This document shows, one piece after another, positions 10,241 to 33,390 of a DNA stretch of 64,000 bases. The stretch is from Bryum argenteum (taxonomy: Eukaryota; Streptophyta; Bryopsida; Bryales; Bryaceae), in assembly GCA_037043015.1 (NCBI GenBank), contig CM073321.1, positions 32,900,101 through 32,964,100 on the forward strand, read 5' to 3'. Position 1 is the stretch's first letter. Each line of letters starts with the position of its first letter. The notes below the pieces were generated by a model, which was not told the DNA's origin, searched no databases, and worked only from the letters and a program-made list of their open reading frames with translations. Both the position numbers and the translations under genes were made by a program.

Positions 10241-11198
10241 GCCAAGACATGCTCTCAAACATCCTGAAAGACTTTGTATAAAACATCTACTTAAACATTG
10301 ATAAAAACATCCATATAGATGTTTGAGGAGATATCTTGTAAAACATCCTGCAAGACCTTTTATGAAAGATTTTGTTACACATCACAACAAACAACTTATA
10401 AGACATTGTGCCAAACATCTTCCAAATGTCTTTGAAGACATCCTATGGAACATTTTGTGAAACATTACAAAAATCACCTATGAAGCATCTTTGCAGACAT
10501 CTTCAAAACATCATATAAGACATTTTATTGTGTAAGACGACAAAAAATATCATTTACACATCTTGCAAAGCATCATTTAAGATATCGTGCAATATGAAAT
10601 GTAACCACTACGATGTCTAAGTCGGTGACTCTAATGACACGCTGAGACTACTAAACACATCACCATGGAAATTAGCAAATACATTGTAAGATGTCTCATA
10701 AGACATTGTAAAATGTCTCATTAGACATCCTCAAATGTCTCGTGTCAAATGTCTCAGAACACGTCCTCAAATTTCTTCCAATGTCTTTTATGACCATTAT
10801 TTCAATATAAAAGCAGTCAAAACTATGCTAACGTGGCATGTCATGTCGGATTTTCTCGATGCCACATCAGATTTTCCCGGATCTACGTTGGATTTTGGCG
10901 CCGCCACATCACGCTTTTGATTGACCACGGAAAACTCCACATCATGATGAAATTCATTGCCATGTCGCATTGCCCGTCCACATGGCGCTGATGTGTCCTC
11001 CACGTGGCTCATTTCTTACCCTTCTAAGTTTACGTTGACACGTCATATCTTCTAAGACATCTTCCCCTTTTTTAAATGTCTTCTTAGACACAACGAGATG
11101 TCTAACCCAACTTTTAGTCTAAAAGTCATTTTCAAGATGTCTAAAACAACTTTAGATGTCTTATAAGACATTTAAAATTTGATGGTCTTCTTATAGTG
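10236..11198 (+). mobile_element. CACTA-like element, right end resolved, left end not
   Basis: Dense AACATC/GACATC motifs run from about 10255 to 10620 and GATGTCT motifs from about 10680 to 11170, flanking a GC-rich core at 10830-11035 that matches those at 1400-1610 and 25735-26020 (shared phrases: TTTTGGCGCCGCCACATCA, CATGATGAAATTCAT, GCGCTGATGTGTC). The right tip reads GGTCTTCTTATAGTG, the reverse complement of a CACTATAAGAAGACC terminus, and ends at 11198. I could not find the matching left CACTA tip, so this may be a truncated or solo end. The three bases after the tip are GCT. Confidence 0.65.
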
Positions 11199-12514: not shown

Positions 12515-13959
12515 CTCCTTAGATCTATTTTCCACTTATTTCAAAGTCACGATGGTTCGAAATACTTGCAAGTAAAATCTACCTTATATTGTCATTACTC
12601 CAATTATTTGTTTAATAATTCCATCATATTTATGAGGTGTTTATTAGCTATCCTAAGATTTAAAGATATTTTTCCTCCCTTCTTTTCAAAATTTTCTCTA
12701 TTATTCAAAGTTTGAGTTACTTCAACTACTTTTTGGTAATTTGGAAAAACTAGCTATGGTCTTCCAATAATTTTTTTGATGATTTCAACATTTTCATAGG
12801 GTCCTTATTGCCTTCATCTAACCAAAAAACCACCTCCACCATGTTAATTTCCAATACATTTGCATTTACCTCTTACTTTCATGAATCTAATACATCTTAA
12901 GTAATTCGAGAAAAAAACTTTCCTTGCTCTCGTCGTCCTAAGATTTTCACCATAACTTTTGTATGACATGAATTACCTGTTGAAGTCATAAAACCACTCT
13001 CCCGCTCATTCGACCCCTACTTCAAATTTTGCTCGATGACTGAATCCTCACAAAAAATTTTACACATAGTTCCATTTGTTCTATCATATTTTTAACACGT
13101 CGACCACGTTTATATCGTCCTATTTAGCTACTTCAGATATTACAAACACCTTCTTTCCATCATTTTCTTAATCACCCCTCATTCAAATTTCTCGAGGGTC
13201 CACCTAAATGGTGACACATAGATGCATTACTCCTATGATCTATTTTATGATGCCATTGTTTTTATAAGGTTCGTATTAGCTAGTGCAAGTACTAAAATCT
13301 TTTTTTCTCGAATTTTATTTATTTTACATTCCCAATTATACTAAGTTCCAATGTATTAAAACTTTTACATGGGACTCATAGCATATAGATGCATCTTTCT
13401 CACAAATATATAAATATCACCATCATTTTTATAGTGTCATAAGTACATAGTGTAAAATTTAAATTATTTTTTCTCGCCTTCGTTATGATTTATACCAATT
13501 ATTCAAAGTTCTAATCGGTAGAGGTAGACTAAAGTAATTAGGGGAAAATAATTCTGATTTTTCTAAAATCATTTTGATGATTTGATAATTCTTATAGTGT
13601 CCATATTAACTACTTTAAATATCAAATGCCTTTCCATTAACCTTGATAAGCCTCTTCTACTTTTAAATATGACAAATTAATTTGCAAATAGCACCTCTAT
13701 TTACAGATAGCACCTCTATTTACAGATAGCACCTTTATAAGTTATTTTTGCCCCTCCTTATTGTTGTTAATCAATTTCTCTGTCAAATTTAATTTCATCT
13801 TCTTAACTCTAGAAGACCAAAGTCATCAGAAGAAATGGCAGTGACTATGACATCATCATAGTCCAAAATCTTGCGCTTTCTTTTGTTGGCGCTGCGGTTC
13901 ATTTCCTCCTCACATCTAGGAGTCCTTCCAACTTCACAGCGAAGAGGGGGAAACCACCG
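12515..13959. other. AT-rich spacer without a recognisable gene
   Basis: Very AT-rich, no coding signal. A small tandem repeat of about 20 bp (AGCACCTCTATTTACAGAT) occurs at about 13685-13735. Confidence 0.4.
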
Positions 13960-14160
13960 GTGTGAGCGTTGAGCAGTGAGCGGTAAGTGGTGAGCGGTAA
14001 GTTTAAGCAGTAAGAAAAAAAAAATTAAAACTTTATGGCCCTATTACCATGGAATGGGTGGTGCCGATATTTTGAGATGGTTATTTTTAGGCATAAAAGT
14101 ACCTAAAACCATGGATATAGGTCCTTTATCCATTTATTTTCATGGTATTAAGGTCATACA
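13960..14160 (-). mobile_element. MULE-like terminal repeat (3' end of a minus-strand element)
   Basis: The sequence starting GTGTGAGCGTTGAGC at 13960, with further GTGAGCGGTAAG units to about 14012, matches the terminal repeats of the two MULE copies at 31347-31375 (inverted) and 61254-61289. The similarity continues inward: ATTACCATGG, then CCTAAAACCATGGATATAGG here, against CCTAAACCCGTGGAGATAAGG-type sequence beside 61254. This looks like the outer 3' end of a related element extending to the right, toward the ParB-methyltransferase pseudogene. A matching left-hand terminus of that element was not found. Confidence 0.5.
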
Positions 14161-14956
14161 AAATTTCATAAATAATCCACATTTGCAAGTTTAAATAAAA
14201 GTTAATTAAATTATGGGCTGGCATCATCATGTGTAACCAATACAATTCAAATCATATACAAAATATAAACCAAAATTTGGGATGGCCCTTTAGGTAATCA
14301 ATAAGTTTATTTTACCGAATTTAATATTTGGAGACTAATTAGGGCTGACGTCATCAATTTCCTATTACACTTGTCAGACTATATGTAAATGATTCGGTTT
14401 ATATAATCTAAAATTTATAACTACAGGTCGTCTTTTCGTGTCCTTGTAAGGTGTACAGAAAGACATTCACGTGGCATTGTAATGGTCTGAGTTCAATTCT
14501 CCTCGGCCTCGTTTGAGCGTTGCACTGCATCTTAAAGCAGCTATCCTGAGCTATACGAATACTTGACTAGAGCCCCTACCAACATTGGCAAGATTCAATC
14601 ACTCCAATGGAAAATAATAAAACCTTCTGAAACTTTTAGTCTACATTGAGTGTAAAACTTAAACATTTAGATACACCGATGCATTGAAATTGGAGTTGAA
14701 GAAGTTACATCAAAATTAGGGCTGACGTCAGCATTAAAGCCAAGCATGGCTTATATTACATTGTACTGAGATACTTAGAGTAATACTTGAAGCACTTAGT
14801 ATAGGGTTAAGCTATCAACGATAATCACGATAAATAAAAATATAAAACCGTATATATTGAAAAACACATATAGATAGTATATAAGTAATAGACCATGGTA
14901 AAGTACAAATGTATGGCGCTACCATGTCCAATACCTATCAGAAAACAAATCACAAA
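14161..14956. other. AT-rich 3' flank of the ParB-methyltransferase pseudogene
   Basis: No coding sequence recognised. The phrase AGGGCTGACGTCA occurs near 14342 and again near 14720. It lies between the terminal repeat at 13960 and the stop codon at 14957. Confidence 0.35.
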
Positions 14957-17900
14957 CTAGACAGATGGTATAGTACCATTAAAGTGCTGATCACACTGAT
15001 CAGCCTCAAAGTCTATAAATTTAAGCACAGTATTGCTATAACGTCGATGTAGAGTGTCAGACAGAATAAGAGATAGAACTTGAACAAACTCTTGAGCAAG
15101 ACGCTCAGCGGAGGATGGTAGGGTGAATTTTGATGGAGGGCTCTTGTAGAGATGAGCGTTGCGAGTCAATCGCTCTTTCAGACTTGCGATCCTTAAATTG
15201 CAAAGAAAGTCAGTCCTACCAATTTGTAAGTGCGTAATTTAAAATCGAGAAAAAGAATACAAGATGGTATTACGCACCAATGAACTTTCGTGGCTTCTTC
15301 ACGATCGGTTCGTCAAAGTCATAATCTGCGGGAGGGGCCGATTCTCTCCTTTCTTCATCACCGGGAGGACCATTCTTGTAATCCGCGAGTACACCATCAA
15401 AGATCTCTTCGTCAGGTTCCATAGCGATTAGGTGTCGGTTGGAGCGTGCGCAAGAAATTACAGATGCACCTAAAAAATCAGAAGCCCACGTTAAAAATGC
15501 GAAACGTAGAAACGAATTCTAATGTACAGTCTACGGAAACATTACCTGTACTTGCGCTCCAGTCAAAGACTATACCTCCATCGCTCGTGAGACAATCCAC
15601 GAAACATTGAATGAAGGGAAGGTCCTTTTCTTGTGAGCCTTGCCATAGCGTACCGTCCGGACGATAACGCAATGTTTCTTTGTCTGCAAAGTTACAGAGA
15701 TGGTCTTCCTCATCAGGTACAATTGCTACACCCGCGTATGCGTGTGCCACTTGCCTAGTTTGGAACTTTGAAAGATACTCTTTACAAACATACACTTTGA
15801 TATGGATGCAGTGAGTCTGCAAAACACAAGTATAGATACGTTAACATGGAAGTATAGAAGACAATGATCGTGAATTGTGAAATTGGAAATTAGAATCTGG
15901 TCCGTACCTCTTTTGGTTTAGGTACAGTAGAGGCCATAGGGAGGTGATTATATCCCCACCAGTCTTAAACAAGACGAAAACTATATGTATGCGACTCAGA
16001 ATCAATAGTACGCTCGATTCTAAGATATTTTGGATGCATAAAAAGAATGGCTCCAACGTCTGTCAAATGATACGCGGCAAACACGAAGAGGCTCTCAAAG
16101 TAGGTTTTGTCACGCCGGTTCTAGGATGGAATTTCTGTTGGAGACACATCCGGTACAGGTAAGTTCTCGGGAGCGTTTGCAAAAATGAGATCAATCCCTG
16201 GATGCTTGGGATCATACTCCATCGCCGAACACGGGTACCTTTGGTCTTTTCCGATCTGAGATACAAGTCAAAAATTAGATAGTGGCTAATAGATTTACAA
16301 GTACAAAATGTAATTAAGGAGATTATAAATGACAAATGTATGAAATAATACCTTCTTGATGTGCTCGACGATATCGAGGATTTGCGAATCCTAGTTTGTA
16401 GTCTTCAAGGACTGATGAACCAAATCTCCAATGTTCCCCTTCTCGAAATACATTGGCAGAGTGACTGATATTTTTGACGACGAGCTGCTACCAATGTGAT
16501 TGGGTTTCGGGAGAGGGCGTATGGCGAAGATTGGCTGGCTGAGGCGATGTGAGGTCTGCTGGGAGTTGTGGTCAACGGTGAATGATTGAGGGGACGACCC
16601 AGCATTGGTAAGCCCACCTATAGAAAGTTGAGTCAGTCTTGCAGCGCGTCGAATTGCATTATTTGTCGCTCCCTTTGAAGCCTGAGTCACATCAACATCT
16701 TCTGGCCCTGCAATGTCTTCTAGGAGGGGAGCAATTTCTTCGGATTCTTGCTCAAGATCTACAACAGGCTTCGCAACTGCGTTGCGTCGCTTCTTGTTTG
16801 CACGAGACTTGGGCACTGCAACTGGTGAAGAAAGAGAAGACATTGGATCAGGTGCGTAGTAAAATGAAGAGGTCGTCATCGTCATTGTCGTCAATCTCCA
16901 TCGGTGCAGAGTAAGCTGGGTTTGAAGCGAGGTTCCGAAGAAGATGCTTCTCCTCTTTGTGCACATAGTTGTCGTCGCACTCAAGGAACCATCCACCGGT
17001 CGTTAATTGGGAGTTGGTAAATAGCTCTTGTTGGGTTGATGAGAAAAAGCTGCGGGGATCATTTGTCACTGAAACGTCCTCGAACTCCATTGGAATGGAG
17101 AACGAAGCTAATGCTCCCTTGGCAACGAGCTCTTGTTTTAAGTACCTACAAAAATGTAAACAAATTAGACTGTGAAAATTGAATATATTGTACCATTTTT
17201 ATTACTATTTTATAGGAAATTGGATACATACCGGAATAAAAGTCGCTTAATTGTAGCTTTGCCTCCAGTAATCTTGTAAATATTCGAGCCCTTGATGAAC
17301 TTTGGACTTGCATTAGGAGCAAGATAGTTTTCGAATGCCTTCTCCTATAAGAGCAACCTCCACTTCTCGATATACACTAATGGCTTTAGTACAATACTAG
17401 ACCACTCAATGTTGAGGTTCTCGTTATCAACCAGATTCTGCAATTCACTTACAAGTGATTGCTCTAGTTGATAATACAAGAAACATGTTAGAATCTAAAG
17501 TAACATACAAACATATTGTAATCACAGACGAAAATGCAAGTTACGTGTGCCCAAAGAGAAGCACGATGTAGAAATGCAACTAAAGCTTTATCTTTCATAG
17601 GGCATTCTTCTGGGAAGCGAAATGATCGTCGAACTTTGCAGCCACTTTGCCTTGAAATCAAAGTGAACATTGTTAGTAGCTACCATGTGTAAGCGTTCAA
17701 GCTTCATGTCGGGTTTCAGGTTTTGGCTGTAATGAGAATTAATCTGCACATCAAACTCACACTTTTCATTGGCGCAGTAGAACGTAAAGACGGATACAGT
17801 GACATAAATCGAAGAACCCAGCCAGCAATACCTCTTTCGCAAATACTTTCCCGAGTTTATTATTGGCCACAGTGACCATCTTGTCGAAATTCTTCTCACG

Positions 17901-19720
17901 TATTGATTTAATTTCAGCCTTGATTGCGTTATCCATGGCACTCCATACTCCAGGTCCAGTTTGTTTCTCTTTTGGAACCGTGGTGTAGTACGTAGCTTCA
18001 GCTTTGTCTTAATTTTTTGCTAACCTTCTCTATATACCAAGCAGAACACAAATGAGAAGTTGTTTTAAAAAAAAATTGAAGGAATAGGGTCCAACACATA
18101 TGTAGAGAATGTACAGCGTATAGAAATTTTACAAAAACGTCTATTGTGACAGGATACCAAGTCTCCTTTCTTGCTTTCGCGTTCTTACAGATCCTGTAAT
18201 CTTCTGGGGAAATGAGGTCCTTGAAATCTTCGAGTTTCAATTTACCAAACTTCCTCATGCGTTGCAGTTTCGCACACAGACTGTCTTCGACGTAATCATG
18301 TTCAGTGGACCTACAACATAGAACGAAGGATAAGAAAAATTGAATATGACAAAATCATAAAAGAAAAGGATTTTAAAAAATGCGACATTCACTTACCAGT
18401 TTATGTCGTTCATAGCATCGAGGAGGAGATTGCTCTCTCCACGGGCATCGCGTACGATGCAATCAACCGAATTGTACCACGAGGGATCATTCTTGTGGTA
18501 CCTCTCGATATGGCGCATCCACGCTGTAACACGGTGGTTACCTTTGTAGACGTAGAAATATTTGTGACTAAGATTACGAAGATCTGGATCGGAATGCAGC
18601 GTACTCTCAAACTCTTCATTCGCGGCTCTCCAATGCGGGTTCGTCCAAAGTTCATCTTGAGTGTCAACAATTTTTTCTCGGCCTTTCTTGTTAAAGGGAG
18701 ACACGTACATTACCTGATCGCCTTCATGGTAGCCTTTGTTGAACTCATTCTCAATTTTTCTGACTTCTTATTTTGAGATCGGGCGAACCTTTGGATAACA
18801 AACGAGGCGACATAGCGGAATTAGCATACGAGACTTCTTAACAGGTTTGTAGCGTAACTTGTTGATGATTGCAATGGAATGACTCTTGTGGAGCATGCAC
18901 ATCTCGTTCGCACTCCAGTCGGGGTCCTTGTTTTGAAGATGTTGAGGCATGTGAATGATTTCAACGTTCACACCTCCACGCAATGTAGTTTCTTCATCAT
19001 CCGAGAGGGACTAGTGTCCGTCATGATCCTGAGTTGGTATATGAATATCTTCAGCTTCGAGAGCATTGTCACTTGAAACCGCATTGCATTCTCTTTCCGA
19101 AGCTTGGTGATCAGTTTCCGCATGACTCTCTTGCAGTACTCCAGATCCCAACTCTTCAACACTTCTGACATTATCAAGTATGAGTTCATCCCAGTCAGAA
19201 GACCCTGTTTGTGGAGGATTCAGAAGAGGCGGGTTGGCTTCTTCATCTTCAATGACATGGACTTGAGCTATGTTCATCTCGCAATTCACAAAAGGAATAA
19301 GATAGTGTCAAATGAACAATAATATATAAAAAGTAGTACATAATCTTTTTGTAATTAAGTATATGATAAACATGTCATATAATGTGACGATACAACTAAG
19401 GAGATTGCAACTTTGCGGCAAGTTGCGGAGAACGTCCGGGTGCAAGTCTAGCTAATGCTTTCTCTTCGATACGACGAGCTTTTGCCTCATTCTTCTTAAT
19501 TCGCATGTTAACCGCTTGTGCAACCCGATCAACGACAACACGTGAAATGTGACGGACAGGTGAGGTAGTAGGTGGAGTTCCCAAAACCAAAGACAATGCT
19601 ATTACTAATCAACGGGACTCTACTATAGCCAACACATCGTCTCTCAAAGCGGAGAGGTTGCTATCTGCATCCGATTCCTCTTCTGGATGAACTCCATGTA
19701 GCTTTAGAGGATCTTGCAAA
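14957..19720 (-). pseudogene. ParB/sulfiredoxin-like plus permuted DNA-methyltransferase-like gene, multi-exon, broken
   Basis: Read on the minus strand, coding blocks can be followed through several introns. An N-terminal part (19720-19396) is basic and helical. A ParB-like domain follows (about 18840-18420): it opens with MLIPLCRLVCYPKVRP and carries YVYKGNHRVTAWMRHI, where GNHR matches the ParB/sulfiredoxin G-x-x-R motif, and ends near SVDCIV. Later exons give a methyltransferase-like domain in beta-class (permuted) order: DLIFANAPEN (about 16165-16190) sits where DPPY is expected, then GAILFMHPK, then GGIVFDWSASTG (about 15575-15546) where the FxGxG SAM-binding motif is expected, spliced to SCARSNRHLIAMEPDEEIF, which resembles the usual 'GRrfIGiEldpeyve'. 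Splice sites such as CTGGTAAGTG support exons. In-frame stops occur near 19614, 19011, 18768, 16391, 16121 and 15966, with a frameshift near 16870. Both catalytic motifs are degenerate, so activity is unlikely. Domain calls are by motif only. Confidence 0.6.
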
Positions 19721-19874
19721 AACACCACCAACCAAACAATCAAATACCAAACAACGAAAACCAAATTTAAAAAAAAAAACTCAACTTAATCAATCCATCT
19801 TTGTTTCACAAAGTAATTCACAGAAATTTTAGAATTCACTGACCATCAATCATCTCAAAATCAACCATCTATTA

Positions 19875-21025
19875 AAATATAAGAATTCAAATCGCAGACA
19901 AGAAGCATGTTTCCAGGCTCAGCGACGAGCTTAATCGGCACGTAGCTCAAGCTCGTTCCTGACTGATTGCCAAACCCACGAACACGATACGCACCGGGTG
20001 CATAGGAGGCTCGCCTCCCAACGCGCCCACGAGCTCCACATTGACACAACATAAGCAGACAAAAAGTAATTTGGGAAAAAAAATTGAATACAGTCAGACA
20101 AGTGCGAGACTTGAGTCGACGCAAGTCTGACACTTGTCCGACCAATTCAACATTCCAAAACCACCAATTCAGAATCAACCATCACAAAAAATGTTAGAAT
20201 TCAAATCCAAGTCAACCAGGTTCGTTTCCGGGCTCAGCGGGGAGTATCATGGCCCGGCTAGCTGAACCAAGTTACCGGCTGACTACCAAACCTACGAGCA
20301 CGATTCGCACGCTGTGCATGAGAGGCTGGCCTTCCCGCGCTCCCAGGAGCTCAACGTCGACACAATATGAGCAGGCAGAAAGTAACTTGAGGAAAATAAT
20401 TAGAATTCAGTCGGACAAGTTCCTCACTTGCGTCGACGCAAGTCTGACACTTGTCCGACCAATTCGACATTCCAAAACCAAAAATTTAGAATCAACCATC
20501 ACGAAAAATGTTAGAATTCAAATTCAAGTCAACGAGGCTGGTTTCCGGGCTCAGCGGAGAGCATCATGGCCGGGCTAGCTGAAGCTGGTTCCCGGTTGAG
20601 AGCGGAACCCACAAGCACGATTCGCACCTTGTGCATGAGAGGCTGGCATCCCCGCGCGCCAACGAGCTCAGCGTCGACACAAGATAAGCAGACAGAGAGT
20701 GATTTGAGAAAAAAAATTTGAATTCAGTCGGACAAGTGCCAGACTTGCGTCGACGCGAGTGTGACACTAGTCCAACCAATTGGATAGTCGAAAACCACCA
20801 ATTCAGAATCTACCATCACGAAAAATGTAAGATTACAAATCCAAGTCAACGAGGTTGGTTTCTGGGCTGAGCGCGGAGCATCATGGCCCGACTAGCTGAA
20901 GCTTGTTCCCGGCTGACTACCAAACCTACGAGCACGATTCGCACCCTGTGCATGAGAGGCTGGCCCCCCTCTCGCGCGCCTAGGAGCTCAGCGTCGACAC
21001 TATATAAGCAGACAAAAAGTAATGC
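19875..21025. repeat. Tandem array of 317-bp units, four copies, last truncated
   Basis: The unit starts near a GTTAGAATTCAAATC phrase and repeats at about 19875, 20191, 20508 and 20825. Each unit has a GC-rich half (GGCTAGCTGAA, GCACGATTCGCACC, GAGAGGCTGGC) and an AT-rich half ending in a palindromic block. The palindrome is centred on GTCGAC, with a core ACTTGCGTCGACGCAAGT and outer arms GTCGGACAAGTG / CACTTGTCCGAC, at about 20093-20143, 20410-20460 and 20727-20777, exactly 317 bp apart. The fourth unit breaks off at about 21025 before its palindrome. No gene is evident in the array. Confidence 0.85.
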
Positions 21026-21100
21026 CGACCTCCCCTGGACCAGAGCATTGGCACACGATATGCCACGAGGAACTAGGCTCGAGAAGCTCAACACGCTCTC

Positions 21101-21541
21101 TCAACACGCTTTTGCAGGAGGGGCGAGCAACAAGACCTTCACACGGCAGGATGATCGAGACCAGGAAGATCGAAACCTCTCTATGGTGGATACGTGATTT
21201 CGAAGCCTCAGCATCTCCCAGAGATTGTACACCTTAACAGCCTTTCCTATGCAGGGATCTGCAACTCCTCTTGAAATCTCTCTACGAATTAGAGTTTTCA
21301 AATAATATTCAATTTTAGGTACCAGTAAGTTTTGTAGAAAACTTACCTTGAAATCTCTGGAGTACCATGCCTCCAACTCCGCTCGTGTCTTAATTGATTC
21401 TTTCGTAGCATATCGTTGCGCCTTGTAAAATTCGGCGAACAAACTAGACTCTGACAAATTTGAACTCACATTTTCCAAAGCTTCTTCGACGTGCTCTCTA
21501 GCTCCTTCCATTGCCACCTCTTTCTCGACCAAATGGGCCAT
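21101..21541 (-). CDS. Unknown open frame, 146 codons
   Basis: The longest clean frame next to the 317-bp array. It is rich in E, K and L, with likely helical stretches (EGAREHVEEALENVSS, RAELEAWYSRDF). I recognise no domain. It begins just after a stop-containing frame and may be one exon of a larger decayed gene; the proline/alanine-rich frames at 21609-21993 are probably not part of it. It could also be chance coding. Confidence 0.3.
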   Translation of the reverse strand: MAHLVEKEVAMEGAREHVEEALENVSSNLSESSLFAEFYKAQRYATKESIKTRAELEAWYSRDFKVSFLQNLLVPKIEYYLKTLIRREISRGVADPCIGKAVKVYNLWEMLRLRNHVSTIERFRSSWSRSSCRVKVLLLAPPAKAC

Positions 21542-22551
21542 TCTCTCTTCTTCCTAGAATTTTTTGACAACACTTAAACACTTCATCAAAATGCATCCTC
21601 TCATGGTATCAAATGTGAGGATCCCATTCTGTCAGAGAACTTTCTTCCCTCATTGTAAATTTAGTCCACTGCCGCCGAGCCCATCGGCGTTTAAAAAAGT
21701 AGCATAACGACATCGAATTTTGCATCTCCAGCGAGATAAGAGGCGAGCGGAGCTTCTTCCAGCTACGAGCGCTTGCTGCACAGGCAGGGCCGGCTAGTCG
21801 AGCACCTGCTGGCACTGTAGTCGACGGGGCCCAGGGGCTTGGAGCTTGGAGCAGATACTGCGCCATGGGCGTCGGGCCCCACGGGCATACGGGCCTCATG
21901 GGCGTGCCGACCCCATGGGTGAGTGGCTCCCAAGGCACTCGCCGCATGGACTATTGATTTATTTTTATTATTGTCCTTAAAAAGATTAGGCAACTATTTA
22001 CATAATTATTTTATAATGTAAAAACCTTTATTCATGAACTTCAATTTCATATGCAATAGTCACATATTCCGGAAGTACGAACTTGCAACCTGCATTTACG
22101 AGATTGGGATCCGCTACTACAAGATTGGGACCCGCAACATGAATCACTGTTTGCAATATAAAAGCAATATAAAATAAAAAATTCAGTCTTGGGTCCACAT
22201 ATATCATGAAACTATATCATGTCTAAACTCAAAACTACACCGAGTTGAAGAATGAATCCTTGTTGATTGTATACTTAACCAACCCTAGGTCTTCTCAGTA
22301 AACCAGGAAGTAAGGTTTCTCATGTACCTCCTCTAATTCTTCAGCACTTGTCTCAAATCCGTCCGTTGTATCATTATGTGTTTCCTCATGAGAAGAGGCT
22401 TTTGCTCTCTCGCCCATATCAATGACTCTTTTCTCCACAAACATTGCTGTTTCATCTCTTGATCAATCGTCTTCCTCTTCCAATCCTCTGCGACCCTAAA
22501 CACAATACATTTTGATATTATCCCATATACGTATTTGGGAATAATGTTACC
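21542..22551. other. Spacer with low-complexity GC-rich patch
   Basis: A GC-rich patch at about 21770-21950 repeats GGGC/CATGGGCG phrases and gives proline/alanine-rich frames on both strands, typical of simple-sequence DNA. The rest is AT-rich. A minus-strand stretch near 22333-22557 (including DWKRKTIDQEM) might be a small coding remnant. Confidence 0.3.
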
Positions 22552-22554
22552 TAT

Positions 22555-25500
22555 CACTATAAGAAAACCCTGTTTTTTGTGATGTCTTGTGTAATGTCTA
22601 ATGTATTTTGTGATGTCTTACCGTCTTAAAAGATGTCTTCGAAGACGGGAGGATGTCTGTACGTCTAACGGGCACATTTTGGATTGGACGGGCATGAAGA
22701 CATCACCAAACAAAAAGATGTTGGTGAAGACATGGATGTCTTTGAAGACATCTCGATAGACATCAAACTGCCACGTTGGCAAGGGATTTTGAACTAGCAA
22801 GGTAAAAACGACCAAAATTTACTGGTGGACAGGGTAAAAAGCATTTCTAATGTTAAAAGAGTAGGTGAATGGGCGGTTTTTCAAAAGTAGAAAAAAACAT
22901 CACACTTTAGTTTTTTTCTTCTTTTTTTTTCTAATGCTAAATCATTATGTCTTGGTAATAATACTTGAAAATACTAATTTCGAGGCTATTCTCACTATTT
23001 TTTCATTGGTCTATTTTTTAAAAAAAATATTATAATATATAATTATATTTCAATAAAAAATATATTTTGTAAATTTTTATTATATTCAAATAAATTAGAA
23101 TATTATAATTCTGTAATTTTTTATGATTTAAAAATATTTAAATATTTAAAAAATATTATATAAAAAATATAATATCTATAAGATAACAATGGTGCCAAAA
23201 AAAAAAGTAAAAGTAATTTCGTGGATATTTAATCCTCAAAAAACACGTGGACATAGATTAATAAAGTTATCTACAGCGCTTTATCTACATGGCAACAAAA
23301 ACTCCACGTCGGACCAGTTGACAAGTCATTCAACATCTAGTCGGATGTCTAACACGATGTCCAACTTACCATAACTACAGTCAGGCCAGAATGTCCGCGT
23401 AGACATCTACTCGGATGTCTGTGAAGATGTTTTGCACGACATCCTCCTAAACGTCATTTACTAAAAAGTGACAGTACTTAAGGGTCTTTTTAGAATAATA
23501 TCAACTTTTTCTCTTACTGGTTGTCCTTCATTGGCGCGGGTCTTTGATTGGGGTAATCCTCAAATACTTAAAGAAAATATAAAAAGAAAATAAAAACAAT
23601 AAACAATGTTTTTTGGCTTACTTCAAGAAGGAATTAAATATTATTGATTACTTATAGATTAGATTATTATAGTCTAATGGCAAGACTATACATTACTCTA
23701 TCATCAACAACCAATATTATACAAATTAAAGCAAATTTACAAGAAATATGAATTTATGAAAGTAGCTATTTAATACAGTTTAGGAGAAAATTAAAGAATA
23801 GAATAAGTAATAAGAAAGTTAGTTGGAAAGTTAGTTAGGGTAGAAATAAAAGGTAGGTAAGAGTTTAAAAGAGAGCCTATCACCATGGAAGACTATAAAT
23901 AGTCTCATGATTGTAATTCCACACGTTTTCTATCAATAAAGATTATTTGATTTGCTGTGGAAGAAACTCTAAGACTTACAATATGTGCTTTGTTGTGGAA
24001 AGAAGTTTAAAGCATCTGGTATTTGATTTGTTGTGAGGGAAAACAAAAAACCCTTTATAGTTAATATGTTGTAATTGAAACCCTGAAGATGTCATCAGAT
24101 GTTTATGATAATGTCTGCAGGGATGTCTAAGATGACATTCATGAAAATGTCTAACATGACGTCTATGAAGATGTCGAAGATGACATCTACGACAGCATCC
24201 AGAACTATCTACAGGGATGATTTTCATTGACTTCAATGGATGAACAGAGGCGGCTAGGGTTTGCTGCCGCCGCCATAGTTAGGTCATGAGACCTTTAAGT
24301 AGAATTAGAGGCCGCACGAAGCTCATTTTTGCCTTCATTTTTCAAAGAGTTAGTGTTTGGAGTGTAGAGGCTAAAGTTTGCTTCTTCATGTGGCTAGGGT
24401 TTGTTGCCGCCGCCATAGTTAGGTCATGAGATCTTCAAATGGAATTACAAAGCTCATTTTTGCCTTAGTTTTTCCAAAGAGTTTGTGTTTAAAGTATAGA
24501 GGATTTCGAAATTGTTTCCATTCAGTTTCAAAATGATTGTTAACTACAATAAGAGAATAGTATTTGTAGAAATCCAGTAGCTCTCAAGAGTAGGTCTCCT
24601 TCTTCATGTGGCTAAGATTTGCTACTTAAGAGGTACTGGATTTCAAAAGCATCTTGTACAAGAAACCCTAGCACTTGTAGTATTTGATTTGTTGTGAAGG
24701 AAACCCTAGTACTTGTAGTATTTGATTTGTTGTAGAAGATGTCTATGATGATGTCTGCAAGATGTCTTAGAGCATGTCTATGAAGATGTCTAAATGTGTT
24801 GATGGAATTCTGTTTTGGAAGGTGGGACATAAGGGGTTGGGGCAGCGAACACGATCTAAGGCCGCGAAGCGACATGCGTGCTTGTGGGTGAGTGGAACCA
24901 ATGTATGCATAAATGTCTATAACGTTGTTTTTAATGATGTCTAGAAGGATGTCTGAAGAAATGTCTAAGCAGATGTTTGCAAGAATGTCTAACTGTATCA
25001 ATATCTTGAGGTTAGGAAGTAAACCATCTCAACCTAGGTAGTGCAATTAAATGAAATTAAATCAGAACTTTTTTACCTTTACAAACCCTTCTTTAATTGC
25101 AGTTGATATTGGTTTATTCAATATGTGTAGCGGCGGGACATGCACATGACCATACGGGTATCGACAACAAGCCATGGTAGTGGAGGAACTTACGGAGTTC
25201 AGATTGTGGGTGCGTAGTATATCGTAGTTGTTGACAGGCGTATTAGTAAATACTCTAGTTTGTGTTATCTGAGGTTTTAATGACCTAAGAGATATATGTT
25301 TGACTCATACTTTTTGATGTGACAATGCTTACATTTGATGTTATGTGAGACGTCTGTGGATTACAGATCTGATGACTATATAAACATCTAAAAATGTCAT
25401 CCTAGATGTCCTTTCATATGCCCAAAAAACATCAATAGTGACATTGTTGCAAACATCATGTTTAACACAAAACGTTCACATCGATGTCCTACGGGATGTC

Positions 25501-26185
25501 GCTACAAACATCCGAGCAAACATCACAAATTTAATAAGGACATCAACGTAAACATCATTCTACGCACTGGAAACATCTTATAAGACATAAAAATTGTATT
25601 CTAAGATATTTTGTAAGACATTGCATACGTCTTGCAAGACATCTTGTACAACATCTAAGATGTCTTGCAAGACATTTAAGTCGTCTTAACTGATGTCTAA
25701 AACTATCATGATAGGAGCATAAAACCTCCGCAATATGCTGACGTCGCATGCCATGTCATTTTCCCGGGTCCACGTCAACTTTTCCCGCGTGCCACGTTAG
25801 ATATTCCCGGGTGCCACGTCGGATTTTCCCGGGTGCCACGTCGGATTTTCTCGGGTCCACGTGGGATTCTGGCGCCGCCATGTCATCTTTCGTGGGACCA
25901 TGTAAAATTCCACATCATGATGAATTTCATCCCCATGTGGCACTGCCCATTGAATTCAAGCTGATGTGTCATCTACGTGGCACCTACGTGGCACACTTCT
26001 TACCCTTCCAAAATTACCTTAAGACATCTTCGATCTTAAGACATTTTCCTGTCTTTTTAGACGTCTGCTTAGACATTTGAGCTGTCTAGGATGTCTTATC
26101 GTCTATAAGACATCCGAATTAATGTCTACGATGTCTTTTTAGACATCATTTACAACATCATTAAAAACGCAGGTTTCTTATACTG
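22555..26185 (+). mobile_element. Complete CACTA (En/Spm-like) transposon, non-autonomous
   Basis: The element begins with CACTATAAGAAAACC at 22555 and ends with GGTTTCTTATACTG at 26185, an imperfect inverted terminal repeat. It is flanked by the 3-bp direct repeat TAT (22552-22554 and 26186-26188), the target duplication expected for CACTA elements. Subterminal zones (22585-22760 and about 25340-26160) are packed with GATGTCT/AGACATC motifs. A GC-rich core lies at 25735-26020. It is about 3.6 kb and holds no intact transposase, only a short AAKR-type coding tail near 24855. Internal features include a very AT-rich block (22910-23180), an extra GATGTC cluster (23330-23450) and a direct duplication around 24250-24490 (GGCTAGGGTTTGCTGCCGCC). 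Confidence 0.85.
24247..24500. repeat. Direct duplication inside the CACTA element
   Basis: GGCTAGGGTTTGCTGCCGCC then GCCATAGTTAGGTCATGAGA at 24251-24290 recurs at about 24391-24432 with few differences, followed by related AATTAGAGGC/AATTACAAAG and GCTCATTTTTGCCTT sequence. The spacing is about 140 bp. Confidence 0.75.
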
Positions 26186-26216
26186 TATACGAATATCAAC
26201 ATGTTTGTAACATACA

Positions 26217-26638
26217 CTACTTCATTACCTCATGTGTAGAGTCCACACCTCCATCGTCATCCCCATCCACGCAAACAGTCTCGCTAGACGTCCTCAACTG
26301 CCATCTACGCCCTTCCTCCTCCTCTTCTTCAGCTTTGTCCGTCCCGACACTCTCCGGGACACTATCGAGGTTGAGCGATCGCATCTTGATAGTCCGTCTA
26401 AATGGCGGTAGCACATCATCGTCGATCAAAATATCGTACCCGTCTGGCTCTCGATCATCGCCGCTAGAGCTTCTCCCATGCCGCTTCCGCAAAGCACTAC
26501 GCCTCTGTCCTTAGAATTAGTGAACTTCGTACCACCCCTCCGGTTTTTCTTCCTCTGACCTATTTCCTTTCCTCTGTCACTTCGTCCATGCTGCTTGCAA
26601 TGAGATGACTTATAACAAGTTCCACCTAACGAGTCCAA
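26217..26638 (-). pseudogene. Divergent ORF upstream of the MULE transposase, frameshifted
   Basis: A minus-strand frame starts at 26638 (MDSLGGTCYKSSHC), is lysine/arginine-rich (GQRKKNRRGGTK), and shifts frame near 26490. It then continues as an arginine/serine and acidic tail with an EEEEEE run and a TGA-free end at 26217. I recognise no domain. It is divergent from the transposase gene at 27114 and ends 31 bp from the CACTA element's right tip. It may be a second gene of the MULE element or an unrelated disordered protein fragment. Confidence 0.35.
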
Positions 26639-27113
26639 GAGTACTCACTCTAAATGAAGAGGTCGAACTATGCGTTTCAACTCCATTATATAAGTTCCCC
26701 CATGCGGCGAAAAACCCTAATCAGCCAACGCGTATTCCCCTAACATCCCGCTATGACTGCGTCTGACAATTCAAAATAAGCTAACTATTGAACGCATCTA
26801 TTATCCACCTGAATCTCTGACAATGACTGTCGCCGTCACTTTACCTTCTACGCCTACTTATTTTATCGACGGATCTCATATTTTGAATTGCTTCTACTTA
26901 ATGTCATTATGTCAGTCCAGATATTTTACTTACTTTAAGTAATGTGTTTTTAAATGATCCTGCCTACGATTAAGAGTATCGGGTATTTATACGTTTTTTT
27001 ATATGAAATTAAGTCTAATAGGTATTCAATACGTATGCAAACACCCTACACCAATTTCTTGTATTTGAACATTCGAAACGCACCTGAGACTCTCTTTCTC
27101 CGCGCACTTCTTG

Positions 27114-30100
27114 ATGTTGTCTTCCTCACCTGCGTCTATCATGGGATCTTCCGCTCCCCTGCCTCCCGCTGCAGCCGTCATTGCCATTAGGTCTGAAGAC
27201 TTAAGTCCCCCCATCTGCATTCCGCCGGGGGTGGATTTAGTGGCAGAAGTCACTCCGTCTTGGCTAGCAATACGTTTCGGGTTTGATGAGTCCTCTCTCT
27301 GGTTAAAGAAACAAGTCTTAGATCCAAACACTAATCTTTTCGAGTACTCTGTCCTTGTCGAACCAGTCGCCCTTGAGAGTAACTCTAAAATCTACAACTA
27401 CGGCCCGGACAATATCGACTGTTCAGCTTGACAGAGTCCGTCATGAACACCTCCACCGTCCTCCTCACTCCTCGTAGTTCTTCTACCATCTCCACTGTTC
27501 TTCCAGTTCTTGCTCGTGTCAAGGTCGAACCCCAACTCGAAGTCCGAATTGATATTACTGATTCATCTAACGATGAAAGAAAATCGTCCATCCAGTCCCG
27601 TCGATTATCATCAAATCTGCCACCCCCCTCGTCTGCTTATGAACACAGTCTCAAAACAACCTTCTCTTCTCATCCCGCGTCCAAAGTCGTAAAACCCAAA
27701 AACATTCTTTCCTCGCTCCATAGACTAGGTAGTATGTCTCGCAACAAAACTATACTCAAAAAAATTGATTTCCATTCCATTCGTACTCACAGCGTCTCTT
27801 TCCTACCTCCCACTTTCAATGGTGATGTCCTTTACATTCTCCCTCATGTTCTACCAACTACTGCTGTCAAGGTAGCCAAATCTATGGAAGGGATGGACAA
27901 AAGATACGACGGTCATGTGTGGACCAGGACAATGACTACTAACATCAGTAACAATCTCGGTTTGTCATTCCGCTACTGTAACTGTGTAGGTCATCTTCAA
28001 TGCCACAAAGAGAACTACGGCTTCTTGCTACGACCTGACCGCAGAGCACAAGTGAATGAGGTGGAGTTCGAGGGCTTTACCAAGGACCCCTTCTCTGTCG
28101 GTCATGCGCCTCCTCCTTCTTCAACACTGGACTGTAAGATCTGTAAAGAACCTCCTGTTTGTGTTGCTGTATGCCCTTCTAAAATATTCTACGTATTCGG
28201 AGAAGAGAGTCAAGAGCGTGCGTGTGTGCATATCGGTACCCACGAACATCCTATCAAGATTGGAGACTACAAATGTGCACGTAAAATAATTGATGAGTTA
28301 ATAGAGGAGCACGTAGAACGTAATCCACAAGCTACTACGTCCAAAATTGTCATGGAGGCTAGCAAGGATTTACTCGGAAACTTACTTCTCCGTGAAAAAG
28401 GTGACCCTATAACCTCCAAGCTTACCCTCCAGGAGCTACAACCTATCTTTGATCAATGTAAAGAGCTGAACTCTCCCAGCGTCAGGAATCGTATTACCAC
28501 TTTTAAGCACTTGCGCAGATACGGTGTTCTTGATGGGATCACCAAGCTTCGAGGCCTCAGCAACTGGGCTCACATTCAACGTAACCAGTTTCCGGGCCAA
28601 GGAGATGAAAGTGACAAAGTTTTCATATTCAAGATGTCCGAGGTCGGCCTCGAAAGCGGTGTTGACCTTGTTTGTCGTATGCAGCCCAGAGGCGACCTGT
28701 CCCATGTGTGGATGATGTTCGACCACGTCAAGCGTGTCAAGAACTGGGCCACCATGGCGTGCCACATTTTTGACTTAAAAATCTGCCGCATTCTAACTAT
28801 TGCATGCTGTGATTTCCAGTCTGAAGACGGAGAAGCTCAAATCGTCTTCTGGAAGAACCTAAACCACGTCATAGGCAGGAACGAAGTGGAAGCGCCGTAG
28901 TTTCAAGGGTTCATGGCCGACAGTGCGCAAGCCAAGAAGAAGGCTGTGCGCATCATTTATGACTCCGGAGACCCTACAGTGCCCATGGAAGGCCGCGAAC
29001 AGACTTGCTACTTCCATTGGACGCAATTCCTAGAAAAACACACCAAACAATACATCGTGCAAGAGCTGCAGGATCAACATCGACATCTTTGTATGCAATA
29101 CAAAGATGCACTCACCATGGCTGAGGCGGAGACAAGATATTGGGCGATCTGAGCGTGGTGGGCGTCGGCGCAGGCCACCTCTGAAGTTGGATTAGGTCAC
29201 CTTGAACACTGGCTTGCATTCTGGCACTTCCGATACATGCAATTGGGTGGCTTCATGGAACTCGTGAGTCCGCAGCCACTGTAGCAATTATGTACACGTG
29301 CTTTTCTGTCCACTAAATCCGTAAAGTATATTTACTTTTTTATTGTAGAATATTCTATTTTTCTGAACTTTTACATTAACAATTATGTAATATTTTATTT
29401 AATAATCTATTTTTAGATCAAACTTGCGGTGCCGCAAGTCTAACCCGCTTTAGATATCCTGATCAACTTCTTCTGTTACTAAGTCAAATGTCTTTGCACC
29501 TTGCTGGAAAATAAATATTCTGCAGAGGAGCTGGCGGAGATGCCTTCATGGAACCTTGCGGAATCTATTCATAACAAATGGTTGCAAGCGTCCAGCAACA
29601 AAGGTGGGGACTTGTACGTTGCAGTTGTTGATGATTATGTTTGTGTTTTCTTCCAAGTTGTGGGTTACCACGACTTCAACGGAGGTGGCAAGGGTGGTAG
29701 TGGACCAACATCCAAAGAACTATTACTTCGTGTTGCCCATAAAGCTCAACGAACCGGCAATCCATCAGGCCTCACAAAGGCAGTTTCTGACTATCGAGGA
29801 GCTGAAAAGATTTGTACCCGCGACGCCCATCTTGAGGAGGCCGAGGTGTTCGGTTCCAAGAAACGAAAGGCTAATGTTCTAATTGGAGCTGATGATGAAA
29901 CGCACAGACCTGACACCGTGAGCTACTCACGTCCTCGAATTCGGCGAAGGGTTACCTGAGCTCGTGGTGAAAATCTGAGTATTATCCCCAATGAGGATGA
30001 AGTTGAGGAGCCACCGACATTACCATCCGCTTTTGCTGGACCTAGTATTAAACATGTGACCGCTGTTGAGGAAACTAAAGTAGACGAGAGGTTGTGGCAC

Positions 30101-30938
30101 ATCGCCCGTTTGAGGGAGAATTCTGCCAAGGCTTATTGGGGTATTATGCGAAAGAGTAAAAATAGATTTGACTCACAAATTATTCGGAAGGGGAAGGCGT
30201 CCGCAGCTCCAACTTACACCTGAGTATGGCAGCGCCCTCAAGATGGGCCAAGAAAAACTGATCAGTTCTTTTTTTTGTGCGGATGATATTGACTGGTGTG
30301 TGAAGGGTCATCGTCGCAAGTGGATTGAGCCATTCTCTCTAAACCAGGAAAGACCTCCTATTCCTCCTGTTAAAATAGGGACTAATCTTACACATGATGA
30401 AACAGAGGCGTTAGAGAATGCGGGCTTTCGACTACCACAAAAACAACAGCTTCCAATGAACCGCACTTTCAATAATGCTGCCCTACCAAGAGACTTGTCG
30501 CATATTCCAGTCTCGGAGAAGCCGGACGTGTTTCCTAGGTCAAGAAGATGAAAGAACATGAAACGCATTCTAGCTATGACCTCAAAGCACATGAAGAATA
30601 TTGAGTCAGCCACCTCAATGCAGGCCAGAATTCTGAAGGTGACCATGATCCCGCAGCCTGGGTTTGGGTGTATCGTAGACTTGGAGTCGGATTCGGATGC
30701 AGTTTATAGACTTTCAATTAGTAAATTCCCGGATTGCTCATGCCCAGCATTCAAGAAAACAATTTCTACATTAGGACGGAGAGATCCATATCGACCGTGC
30801 AAGCACCTATACTTCATCACGGTATTGGTTTGCAAATTTGATCCAGATGCTGACCTCTTCATCCACGCGGCCACTCTTAGTTTCAACGAGGTCAAGAAGA
30901 TTTTGGACGGAGGAATTGTAGACCATGCTACAGATTAG
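27114..30938 (+). pseudogene. MULE-like transposase with C-terminal SWIM zinc finger, broken (copy 1)
   Basis: A first frame runs from ATG at 27114, shifts near 27428 and continues 27428-28900 (490 codons). This part has a cysteine/histidine-rich region (FRYCNCVGHLQCHKENYGF, then CKICKEPPVCVAVCP and ACVHIGTHEHP) and then a core with RILTIACCDFQSEDGEAQ and, in the next frame, FMADSAQAKKKAVRIIYDSG. The latter two aspartate phrases sit where DDE transposases carry catalytic acids. An exon ends at GGFMEL (about 29261, donor GTGAGT). From 29501 a further exon runs to 30938 and includes the SWIM motif CSCPAF...RPCKHLYF (CxCxnCxH). In-frame stops occur near 29150, 29957, 30222 and 30549. The same gene, less complete, lies at 61723-63593. 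Assignment to MULE is by motif order, not by search. Confidence 0.65.
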
Positions 30939-31346
30939 AATGCCTTAAATCTCCTCATTTACATACACCATATGTAAGCCCTATGATTGGGTGTATGTGA
31001 TATTTTTTCACAACTTATTAAAAATTATTATACCAGTACCTACATGTACAGCAAACCTTGCCAATTTGTCTAACTCGGAGTACTAATCACTTGGAAATAT
31101 TACCTTAGATATCTCTTGACATTTACAAATTGTGATTTACTGTTGAGGTTTGTAGCTCAAGTCCAACCAAATTCAGGGAATTTAAACCTTATTTCTACAA
31201 GTTTGGGTCATTAAATCCATAGTAATAAGTATGGAATATTCGAGTATTCTCGAGAATATTCGGGAAATATACCCTAATAAAAATATTACACTATTTTTAG
31301 AATTTTTTTTACTAAAACTACAAAGTCAGCCCTAAAAATTCAGAAA

Positions 31347-31375
31347 TCTTACCGCTTACCGCTCAACGCTCACAC
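31347..31375 (+). mobile_element. 3' terminal inverted repeat of MULE copy 1
   Basis: The sequence CTTACCGCTTACCGCTCAACGCTCACAC, in two pieces CTTACCGCTTACC and GCTCAACGCTCACAC, is the reverse complement of the terminus at 61254. It lies 410 bp after the transposase stop codon. The inner flank at 31235-31265 (GAATATTCGAG, CTCGAGAATATTCG) matches 61375-61402 next to copy 2. Confidence 0.7.
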
Positions 31376-31937
31376 AATAGCAACGTCCCAGCGGAGAGTG
31401 AGATCGAAAATCGCACAAGAAGAAGGATGAGGCGGTGGAGTTTGAAGAATTACATCCTCATTACTCAAAACATGCACATCCTTCCCCTTCTCCTTGTATA
31501 AATAGGGACGCACTTGATCAATATTATTAGGAATTCCATTGACTTTAGCAGTGCCAGAATACATACCAATCGAAAAGGGCGAATCACGGAGTCCATGTTG
31601 AACGTGACGCTCCGGTCGCCGATTGCTTATGCTTTTCTTCATGGTATTAGGTCCTCATGTTCCCCCATTTCTCCCTTGTTTGTCTGTCACTATGTGGATT
31701 CTCCTTTAGAAATTATGCATTGTTGACGTTAACGAAGTACTCTCAATTTTCCGCCTTAAAGGCCTTTCTATCATACTTCCGATACTTCTCCTTAATAATT
31801 TTAAACAAAAAATGAATAACTCCATCACTCCACTTTCTCTCAAAACTTGCCTTTAGAACCACATTTTGAGTCTCCTTGCCCTTCCTGTGACTATCCTCTA
31901 CTATGAAGGCCAATAGGCTACCTCCCGAGTCACCCAT
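31376..31937 (-). pseudogene. Myb/SANT-like DNA-binding domain gene fragment, broken
   Basis: On the minus strand an ATG at 31937 opens a frame with KWSDGVIHFLFKIIKEKYRK and KAFKAEN, then a TGA where a tryptophan is expected, then EYFVNVNNA. Further along are REKWGNMRT, a stop, then YHEEKHKQSATGASRSTW, a stop-like break, and ALFD. This order (W...l..l..e......f....W......), then a K.HEEK.KQSATGAS.STW.P tail, is what I know of plant trihelix or Myb/SANT-like domains, often found with transposons. Three in-frame stops make it a pseudogene. It ends exactly where the MULE terminal repeat begins, suggesting the MULE inserted into it or was deleted against it. Confidence 0.55.
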
Positions 31938-32329: not shown

Positions 32330-33232
32330 AGCCGCTTACTAATTCCAATCCATGTTCCAAATGTCAGGTCCTATTTTAGCCTTTTTTCCGCGAACTGCGT
32401 AATGAAAAGAAAGAGGATTTTCCCTCTATCGCTCGCGTCTTTTCCTTTCCGATACACTTCAGTGCCTTTATCGTCCAAGAACACTTTCGGTAACCGATAC
32501 CTCGAACCTCTCGTGCACACCGCATTGGCGGAAAAGAAACGATCTTTTAGGGAGGGCTAGGGTGCGGCCTATGCTTCGACGTCAAGTGCACCAACGCCGC
32601 AACCTACAACCCCTAATCCATTCGCATAGTCATCACAGGTTAGTTTTCCGGCGGAGTGTACCGCAACAAGTCCAACCCCGCCTTCGACTTTGGTAGAGCT
32701 GTCATGAGCGCCATCGTGCTGCTAGATAAGGACGGCGAGCTGCAGAATGTGGGCGAGTACGACATCATGTATAAGCGCGTGCCGTGCGAGTATGGAAACC
32801 ACAACATGGCGTTTCAAGTAGATGCGCAGCCGACGCTGTTTTAGTTGTTTTTCACGGTGAACCACGTGGGAGAGTCGGGTGACATTGAGAGTGTGGAGAT
32901 CAAGGACAACGGTAGGGAGTCTTTTGAGCCGGCTAAGCACAACAGGGACGCCAACTCGATGTTGATCAATAGGCAGACATTCAAGGGTCTTTCGTCCATC
33001 AAGGTCACAGCCAAGCTAAACAAACACTCCGTTGTGGCAGAGGACACGATCCATGAGGGATTCGAGCCCCGCAAGGTATACGAGAGCAAGGTGCAGTTCA
33101 AAACCTAGCGTGGAATCTTCACGAAGTACACTGCAACTTGTAGTCTTGACAAGGGAAGATTTTTGAGTGCCGACTTTTCTCACAGAGAGTACTATTGTCC
33201 AGAGTTTGCCCGATAGCATGGGGTCTCGGATT
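32330..33232 (+). repeat. Left arm of expansin inverted repeat
   Basis: This arm is the reverse complement of 33945-34870 over roughly 900 bp. It includes a shared upstream part, the expansin-like coding remnant (32560-33108) and a shared 3' part ending near the phrase GCATGGGGTCTCGG (about 33219-33232). The two arms share the same stop codons, so the duplication happened after the coding sequence had broken. Confidence 0.85.
32560..33108 (+). pseudogene. Expansin pseudogene (left copy)
   Basis: The frame carries GCGLCFDVKCTNAAT (the expansin GCGxCxxxxC region), then stops, then YRNKSNPAFDFG, LLDKDGELQNVGEYDIMYKR followed by VPCEYGN. The latter is the expansin 'I.YRRVPC' boundary between the GH45-like barrel and the C-terminal grass-pollen-like domain. 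A TAG at about 32842-32844 interrupts the start of the C-terminal domain, which continues with FFTVNHVGESGDIESVEIK (matching 'LVTNVGGAGDI..V.iKG') to a stop at 33106-33108. The signal peptide and N-terminal third are missing or unrecognisable. In-frame stops near 32613 and 32642 also break it. Expansins loosen cell walls; this copy cannot. Confidence 0.8.
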
Positions 33233-33287
33233 GAGGCAATTTTACAAATTTTTTGAGCTTCAACCTGGATCACACACTGAAGCAATA

Positions 33288-33390
33288 CAAATGTACAATT
33301 GGTTACCTTCAAAGAATGCACAAATGTACAATTGGTTACCTTCAAAGAATGCACAAATGTACAATTGGTTACCTTCAAAGAATGTACAAA
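33288..33390. repeat. 33-bp tandem repeat in the loop of the inverted repeat
   Basis: The unit beginning CAAATGTACAATTGGTTACC repeats three times without change in length from 33288, followed by a partial copy. Because 33 is a multiple of three it gives a repeated 11-residue peptide in one frame, which I regard as incidental. Confidence 0.9.

Follow-up and report, generated by a model that had tools for sequence, protein, structure and literature searches.

A two-gene DNA transposon of the moss Bryum argenteum carries a ParB-fold, methyltransferase-like gene beside a palindrome-bearing repeat array

We analysed a stretch of 64,000 nucleotides from Bryum argenteum (GenBank assembly GCA_037043015.1, contig CM073321.1, forward-strand positions 32,900,101 to 32,964,100), hereafter the window, whose numbering is used throughout. 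It contains one copy of a DNA transposon, 17,442 bp long and delimited by inverted ends and a 10-bp target duplication. The element combines two divergent genes, one encoding a ParB-fold block together with a methyltransferase-like (MTase-like) domain and the other transposase-like, with a tandem array of palindrome-bearing repeats; we hold this anatomy to be practically certain. The element is real, mobile and selected, and would be of the transposon-with-regulator kind. A first-pass annotation of the locus had tentatively placed the ParB/MTase-like gene on a transposon. Defined ends, target duplications and 296 left ends uphold this part; the range it gave, 14957 to 19720, is only a portion of 13947 to 31388, and it had overlooked the element's termini, the divergent transposase-like gene and the palindrome array.

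For comparison with the window copy we retrieved ten others (c1 to c10), each with roughly 9 kb of DNA on the upstream side of its ParB block and 10 kb on the downstream side; the left end was defined from extra upstream DNA of four copies and the window. The ParB/MTase-like gene is present in all 11 copies. The second gene was found upstream of it in c1, c2, c4, c5, c6, c8, c9 and the window; in c3, c7 and c10 none was seen within the fetched DNA, which contains repeats and other sequence. Nine of the 11 copies have a right end in common, not located in c6 and c7. The termini are inverted: the left one reads GGACGTTGCTACCGTGTGAGCGTTGAGCGG and the right one, when reversed, GGGGAAACCACCGGTGTGAGCGTTGAGCGG. 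Every one of the five copies with both ends seen is flanked by a 10-bp duplication. Its two repeats are identical in c2, c4 and c9 and differ at one position in c5 and the window; in the four relatives, none of the other lengths computed, 7 to 13, gave a fit. These four complete relatives measure 14,254–15,517 bp, against 17,442 bp for the window copy, which has an additional stretch at about 22555–26185. This stretch contains degenerate ATGTCTAAGATG-type repeats, is in part like 10839–11008, and is probably another inserted repeat. In copy c1 (L009 1–2892), the 3' part of the transposase is in reverse orientation and bracketed by 122-bp inverted repeats (97.5% identical), like a flipped segment.

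Throughout the assembly (258.8 Mb, 25 contigs) we counted 296 left ends (146 + 150) at up to three mismatches, with none for the control. A 178-residue block containing the ParB motif was found at 77–100% identity at all 150 places scored, from 1181 candidates, and for the transposase block every one of the 150 places scored, out of 1134 candidates, was likewise a match; both counts are lower bounds. About 27 of the 150 listed ParB-block places contain a stop. The features of the window copy are collected in Table 1.

Table 1. Features of the transposon copy in the window (window coordinates).
Feature	Position	Strand	Remarks
Whole transposon copy	13947..31388	.	ends common to c2, c4, c5, c9; inverted ends and 10-bp duplication
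Target-site duplication, low end	13937..13946	.	CTCTTCGCTG on minus strand; 1 mismatch to high-end copy
Target-site duplication, high end	31389..31398	.	CTCTCCGCTG on minus strand
Low-end inverted terminus	13947..13993	+	GGGGAAACCACCGGTGTGAGCGTTGAGC..., 7-bp GTGAGCG-type repeats; inner limit approximate
High-end inverted terminus	31345..31388	-	GGACGTTGCTA..GTGTGAGCGTTGAGCGG...; the family's left end; inner limit approximate
Exon 1	18397..19277	-	variable N-terminus and ParB/Srx-fold block (GNHR)
Exon 2	18133..18310	-	middle region
Exon 3	17832..18029	-	middle region
Exon 4	17545..17743	-	middle region; frame shifted in window copy
Exon 5	17232..17467	-	middle region
Exon 6	16352..17145	-	middle region and low-complexity linker; frame shifted in window copy
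Exon 7	15908..16255	-	MTase motif IV position; DAPE in most copies, NAPE in window
Exon 8	15546..15816	-	MTase end block up to motif I (FDWSASTG)
Exon 9	15278..15469	-	remainder of motif I region (ASVI.CARSNRHLIAMEPDEEIF)
Exon 10	14957..15183	-	C-terminal tail
Tandem array	19855..21023	.	upstream of ParB/MTase-like gene; 3.7 units of 317 bp
Palindrome site 1	20109..20126	.	one mismatch to ACTTGCGTCGACGCAAGT
Palindrome site 2	20426..20443	.	exact
Palindrome site 3	20743..20760	.	one mismatch
Divergent transposase-like gene, remnant	27069..30938	+	limits approximate, from open reading frames
Most conserved transposase-like block	28715..29275	+	88% identical to query, with stops; genomic C1:32928815-32929375
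C-terminal SWIM-like zinc finger	30552..30938	+	12.9 bits, under Pfam cut-off 19.6

Reading the minus strand against its relatives gave ten exons for the ParB/MTase-like gene, running from 19277 down to 14957, in agreement with the multi-exon gene of the first-pass annotation. The ParB-like block VYKGNHRVTAWMRHI lies within exon 1; the MTase blocks follow as NAPE in exon 7, GGIVFDWSASTG in exon 8 and SNRHLIAMEPDEE in exon 9. The window copy is dead, as had been stated: from the ParB block on, its reading frame is interrupted by six stops and by two indels that shift the frame, in exons 4 and 6, and one additional stop lies earlier in exon 1. A change of frame near 17790 is no frame shift, since relatives have an intron there. 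The intact relatives that had been expected do occur: of the 11 copies, spliced by alignment, two have a frame open over its full length (about 1,165 residues), one of them with ATT at the position of the others' ATG. Five further copies were read from the ParB block on, with codons anchored on one copy, and two of these show no internal stop or gap. In the open copies a single reading frame spans the ParB and MTase parts, which supports the proposed fusion.

Compared with some 5.8 billion proteins, the conceptual protein (a query in which the frame change near 17790 was still read as a frame shift) gave three matches at E ≤10 among 7994 scored candidates. All three come from the moss Ceratodon purpureus (Bryophyta), with E-values of 1e-166 to 1e-194 and 44–47% identity across 66% of the query; these values and the 150 scored in-genome places of the ParB block rule out a chance match. 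A profile of the MTase end retrieved three further proteins (E 1e-104, 6e-102 and 3e-13), and one of the ParB exon 55 protein matches, among them KC19_VG030900 of Ceratodon, whose KC19_VG tag we take to denote the V chromosome. Related proteins occur in another moss at 62–65% identity. In the relatives P0004 and P0005, intron sequence appears by eye to have been translated where exon 7 meets exon 8 and where exon 8 meets exon 9; intron positions therefore seem conserved between species. P0006, from the MTase side, and P0019, from the ParB side, both derive from contigs listed at 5405 bp, perhaps a single contig, which would support a single gene there as well. Judged by title or abstract start, none of the papers listed describes the element, and no paper in the collection searched joins ParB-like proteins, land plants and moss.

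The ParB/sulfiredoxin (ParB-CTPase) fold of the exon 1 block, suspected from the first reading, is supported by comparison of three-dimensional folds. GxxR is the nucleotide motif of the ParB-CTPase fold and ENxxR its second phosphate motif, and sulfiredoxin carries its catalytic cysteine in GCHR. In an alignment of 58 rows (six of ten locus exons and 52 of the 55 ParB-exon profile matches, with P0057, P0060 and P0061 left out), the GxxR-type motif is kept: among rows with a letter, G stands in 53 of 54, N in 55 of 55, H in 55 of 55 and R in 53 of 55. The asparagine occupies the position of the sulfiredoxin cysteine, which thus occurs in none of the 55 rows. The ENxxR-like position, placed by eye, reads [DN]AMND[IV]N. 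A ParB-like PHROGs family matched the block with a best E of 0.0021, and for none of ten members did PF02195 appear among the families listed at E ≤10. In a viral structure library the best row was an uncharacterised giant-virus protein (E 0.0016); tblastn of the block against phages returned no match, and the one pattern scanned found no relatives in viral contigs. The sole prokaryotic match, in Tsuneonella, was judged to be chance, being antisense to another open reading frame (ORF), which we read as hemE. Acquisition of the gene from a phage or prokaryote, as the first-pass annotation had inferred, is no more than plausible, since neither source yielded a close relative of the ParB part.

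The relationship of the C-terminal part to DNA methyltransferases emerges from comparison with phage enzymes. Using P0001 as query, tblastn returned 240 phage records at E ≤10; of the ten listed, at E 0.01–0.3, seven are annotated as methylase or methyltransferase, one as Rsrl and one as hypothetical, and one record is without annotation. One phage enzyme aligned across residues 2–237 of 252 (pairwise E 3e-9), with IDLIIADAPEG against IDMILCDLPYG on the motif IV side and GDIVFDWSASTGAS...NRHLIALERD against GETVLDNTAGSGTT...NRKWICMERD on the motif I side. When the profile was compared with five of the ten listed phage enzymes, it matched over the motif I block with 95% probability, against 0.3% for a ParB-block control. 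Motif IV precedes motif I within one domain, which is the beta order; both the phage collinearity and the profile comparison bear out the beta-class order read at first sight. All five members tested matched MTase families of PHROGs (best E 1.2e-5), and two of five gave weak matches in NCBIfam. PF01555 scored 14.5–18.3 bits in all three Ceratodon proteins, under its cut-off of 26.7. Among PDB profiles, DNA methyltransferases filled four rows at E 0.8–1.1, ranked behind a dynein light chain (Tctex) match at E 0.0075; the latter (three rows, E 0.0075–0.0081) overlaps the motif IV region and was judged to be chance.

The catalytic motif of N6/N4 DNA methyltransferases is [DNS]PP[YFW]. No DPPY or other form of it occurs in the 16 copies read: 12 have DAPE, and the other four DSPE, NAPE, HAPE or a broken codon, while 15 of the 16 carry WSASTG at motif I. 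DAPE is likewise present in all five rows of the relatives' alignment A1 and in P0005, with DAPS in P0004. Catalysis is doubtful because DAPE and SASTG replace DPPY and FxGxG. Judged from these altered motifs, an active DNA-modification enzyme is thus doubtful, contrary to the original suggestion that the transposon carries one of its own; nor was the forecast of DPPY and FxGxG residues borne out. The proposed check with PF02195 and PF01555 also failed, profile scans at Pfam curated thresholds finding neither the ParB nor the MTase domain.

Purifying selection is strong on both the ParB and the MTase part. With stop codons and gapped codons left out, ratios of non-synonymous to synonymous divergence (dN/dS) between the two open copies are 0.04 for the ParB block, 0.11 for the middle region, 0.06 for the MTase part and 0.58 for the N-terminus (89 of 102 codons). 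In all ten comparisons with one open copy, the ParB block remains at 0.04–0.12 and the MTase part at 0.06–0.30; nine other copies against the same open copy give 0.07–0.30 in the MTase part and 0.54 to 1.17 in the N-terminus. In every comparison the MTase half shows less silent divergence than the 5' half, suggestive of gene conversion between subfamilies or of recombination between them.

The array is found on the upstream side of the ParB/MTase-like gene and, in copies where both genes are seen, separates the two. An 18-bp perfect palindrome, ACTTGCGTCGACGCAAGT (24-bp form, CAGACTTGCGTCGACGCAAGTCTG), is present in all 11 copies, with 2–16 sites each at up to one mismatch; in the window there is one per 317-bp unit, and other copies space them less evenly. 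Genome-wide there are 616 sites at up to one mismatch and none for the reversed control. Over 60 sites, with copies weighted equally and the first 5000 bases of five copies skipped, the core holds 1.94 bits per position and the flanks 0.67. The outer arms vary between copies and are partly complementary: taking one site per copy, own arms form 10.0 of 14 pairs, a value reached in 22 of 20,000 permutations, and swapped arms 8.2. We also checked five copies without an exact site (L033–L037) and a more divergent one (L038), with L039 as control. Repeated variant, imperfect palindromes of like layout (for example CCAGACATTCGTGGACGAAAGTCTGG) occur in all six; it seems that the layout of the array is kept while its letters change between subfamilies.

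We call the second gene transposase-like from its position, its copy number and a pattern of acidic and histidine residues recognised by eye. Two copies have open frames of 738–754 residues followed by the SWIM-like end, and Pfam returned nothing for this gene beyond weak SWIM matches. Mutator-like elements (MULEs) make target duplications of 8–11 bp (PMC6446971), a range that includes the 10 bp found here; the inverted ends and the SWIM-like C-terminus, below threshold as it is, are further likenesses. Unlike them, the element gave no match to the MULE transposase domain PF10551 in its four transposase-like ORF pieces. The genome has 52 MULE places, by eye none of them coincident with the 150 listed transposase-block places. 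The element is Mutator-like by duplication length.

We propose that the ParB/MTase-like protein is an element-specific DNA-binding factor that acts on the array to license the transposon or to counter its silencing, and give this reading, built by analogy, a probability of roughly 0.4. Binding of the array palindromes has about even odds; the licensing or anti-silencing function, taken by itself, is a somewhat more tentative claim. The protein would load as a dimer on the palindromes, possibly spread in the manner of ParB clamps, and keep open or mark the family's own shared promoter region; the transposase would then be expressed in spite of host silencing. The MTase-like part would probably be a scaffold binding DNA and S-adenosylmethionine, or have altered chemistry, because the DPPY position reads DAPE. 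A bolder version appears to us on the unlikely side: a eukaryotic ParB/parS-like selfish system, with loading on palindromes, spreading, a converted MTase that marks or shields the copy, and site and protein diversifying by subfamily. If the proposal is true, a ParB fold was recruited into the conflict between transposon and silencing, beyond the bacterial and phage world. The element also illustrates how strong selection can persist on an MTase domain whose catalytic tetrapeptide has changed.

Several results count against the licensing or anti-silencing factor. No DNA-binding helix-turn-helix was identified, and the middle region is without a confident model; the MTase structure model, that of P0001, is too poor for use (mean predicted local distance difference test score 33). 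The dN/dS of the N-terminus is near 1 in three comparisons. The high information of the palindrome core is partly circular, as sites were picked by their match to it, and the palindrome rule of our script recognised the variants of just two copies, L033 and L035, those of the remaining four being judged by eye. The comparison on contig C1 drew on partial lists: 68 places with the ParB block, 57 with the transposase block, 55 exact left ends, and exact palindromes to 18.2 Mb. Over those first 18.2 Mb, an exact palindrome lies within 12 kb of just six of the 27 listed ParB blocks (random, 0.34), and for ten of the 19 palindrome clusters no element feature is listed within 25 kb. Co-divergence of protein and palindrome type through recognition was considered and dropped. 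The fixed differences between palindrome types, 40 silent and 17 non-silent, all fall in codons 0–540, the ParB-side half; silent changes sit where non-silent ones do, and linkage or recombination therefore explains the pattern.

Other roles can be envisaged for the gene. As a transposition accessory or autoregulator, its protein would bind the central array and repress or activate the divergent promoters, or shape the transposition complex, with no link to silencing. The array does lie between two divergent genes in complete copies; in all five of these, however, the sites are more than 5 kb from either end, unlike usual end-binding sites, and the fast-changing N-terminus better suits an arms race, so that we consider this role unlikely. 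Quite unlikely, too, is an active DNA methyltransferase whose ParB part would target the array for adenine or cytosine-N4 methylation, marking the element as permissive or timing its transposition. The beta-order relationship, the purifying selection on the MTase part and the documented phage fusions of ParB with N6/N4 methyltransferases (PMC12704722) speak for such an enzyme, and the replacement of the DPPY aromatic by E in the copies read (by S in P0004), with motif I altered as well, against it.

That nine of the 11 spliced copies are broken would agree with a captured passenger gene without a role in mobility. We find this improbable given the low dN/dS of its ParB block and MTase part in all ten comparisons, and the 62–65% identical proteins of another moss. 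The ParB fold and repeated palindromes also recall ParB/parS-like tethering or partition, which could help keep extrachromosomal or replicating copies; Pfam scans of the window's ORF pieces revealed no ParA-like family, no dedicated ParA search having been made, and we regard this role as highly improbable.

Among known systems, the closest in layout are the VANDAL elements of Arabidopsis with their VANC anti-silencing proteins (PMC5735166, PMC10398659). These too are DNA transposons encoding a transposase and a further protein, with noncoding tandem repeats in which a short motif recurs whose letters differ between families (PMC5735166). The moss element likewise has noncoding repeats with a repeated motif that differs between subfamilies, the variants being recognised partly by eye. 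We see the likeness because it joins a two-gene transposon, a ParB fold, repeated palindromes, a variable N-terminus and expanding repeats. The moss element differs by its ParB and MTase folds and by its palindromic sites, at which binding is predicted; the likeness is one of layout.

Phages fuse a ParB-CTPase fold to an N6/N4 methyltransferase (PMC12704722): the same two folds stand in one protein, and the MTase part here is collinear with a phage enzyme, whereas the moss gene is eukaryotic, with ten exons, a long middle region, altered MTase motifs and scores below Pfam thresholds. In the same ParB-fold survey, sulfiredoxin is the commonest eukaryotic case, with some other eukaryotic domains in divergent clades; the words plant, moss and transpos- are absent from its main text, and its eukaryotic search employed PF02195 with the gathering cut-off (PMC12704722), by which the moss family is missed. 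Fungal DNA transposons encoding a TET/JBP dioxygenase (PMC12730594) similarly carry a gene related to DNA-modification enzymes, of a different class and in different hosts. Retrotransposons with cytosine methyltransferases in dinoflagellates and charophytes (PMC5890265) are also transposable elements with a DNA-methyltransferase gene; unlike the moss domain, theirs are C5 enzymes, host-derived and borne on retrotransposons.

Elsewhere in the window, a long inverted repeat lies just outside the element at 32331–34866, with arms of 755 and 179 nucleotides at 98% identity and 696 nucleotides between the 755-nucleotide arms. Broken plus-strand ORFs without a convincing Pfam match, at 58089–60423, may represent another transposase-like or repeat gene. 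Finally, a second, diverged member of the family occupies 61241–64000 and runs off the end of the window; its left end (61241–61267) has three mismatches, and a transposase-like fragment within 61716–63592 is about 73–78% like 29045–30945.

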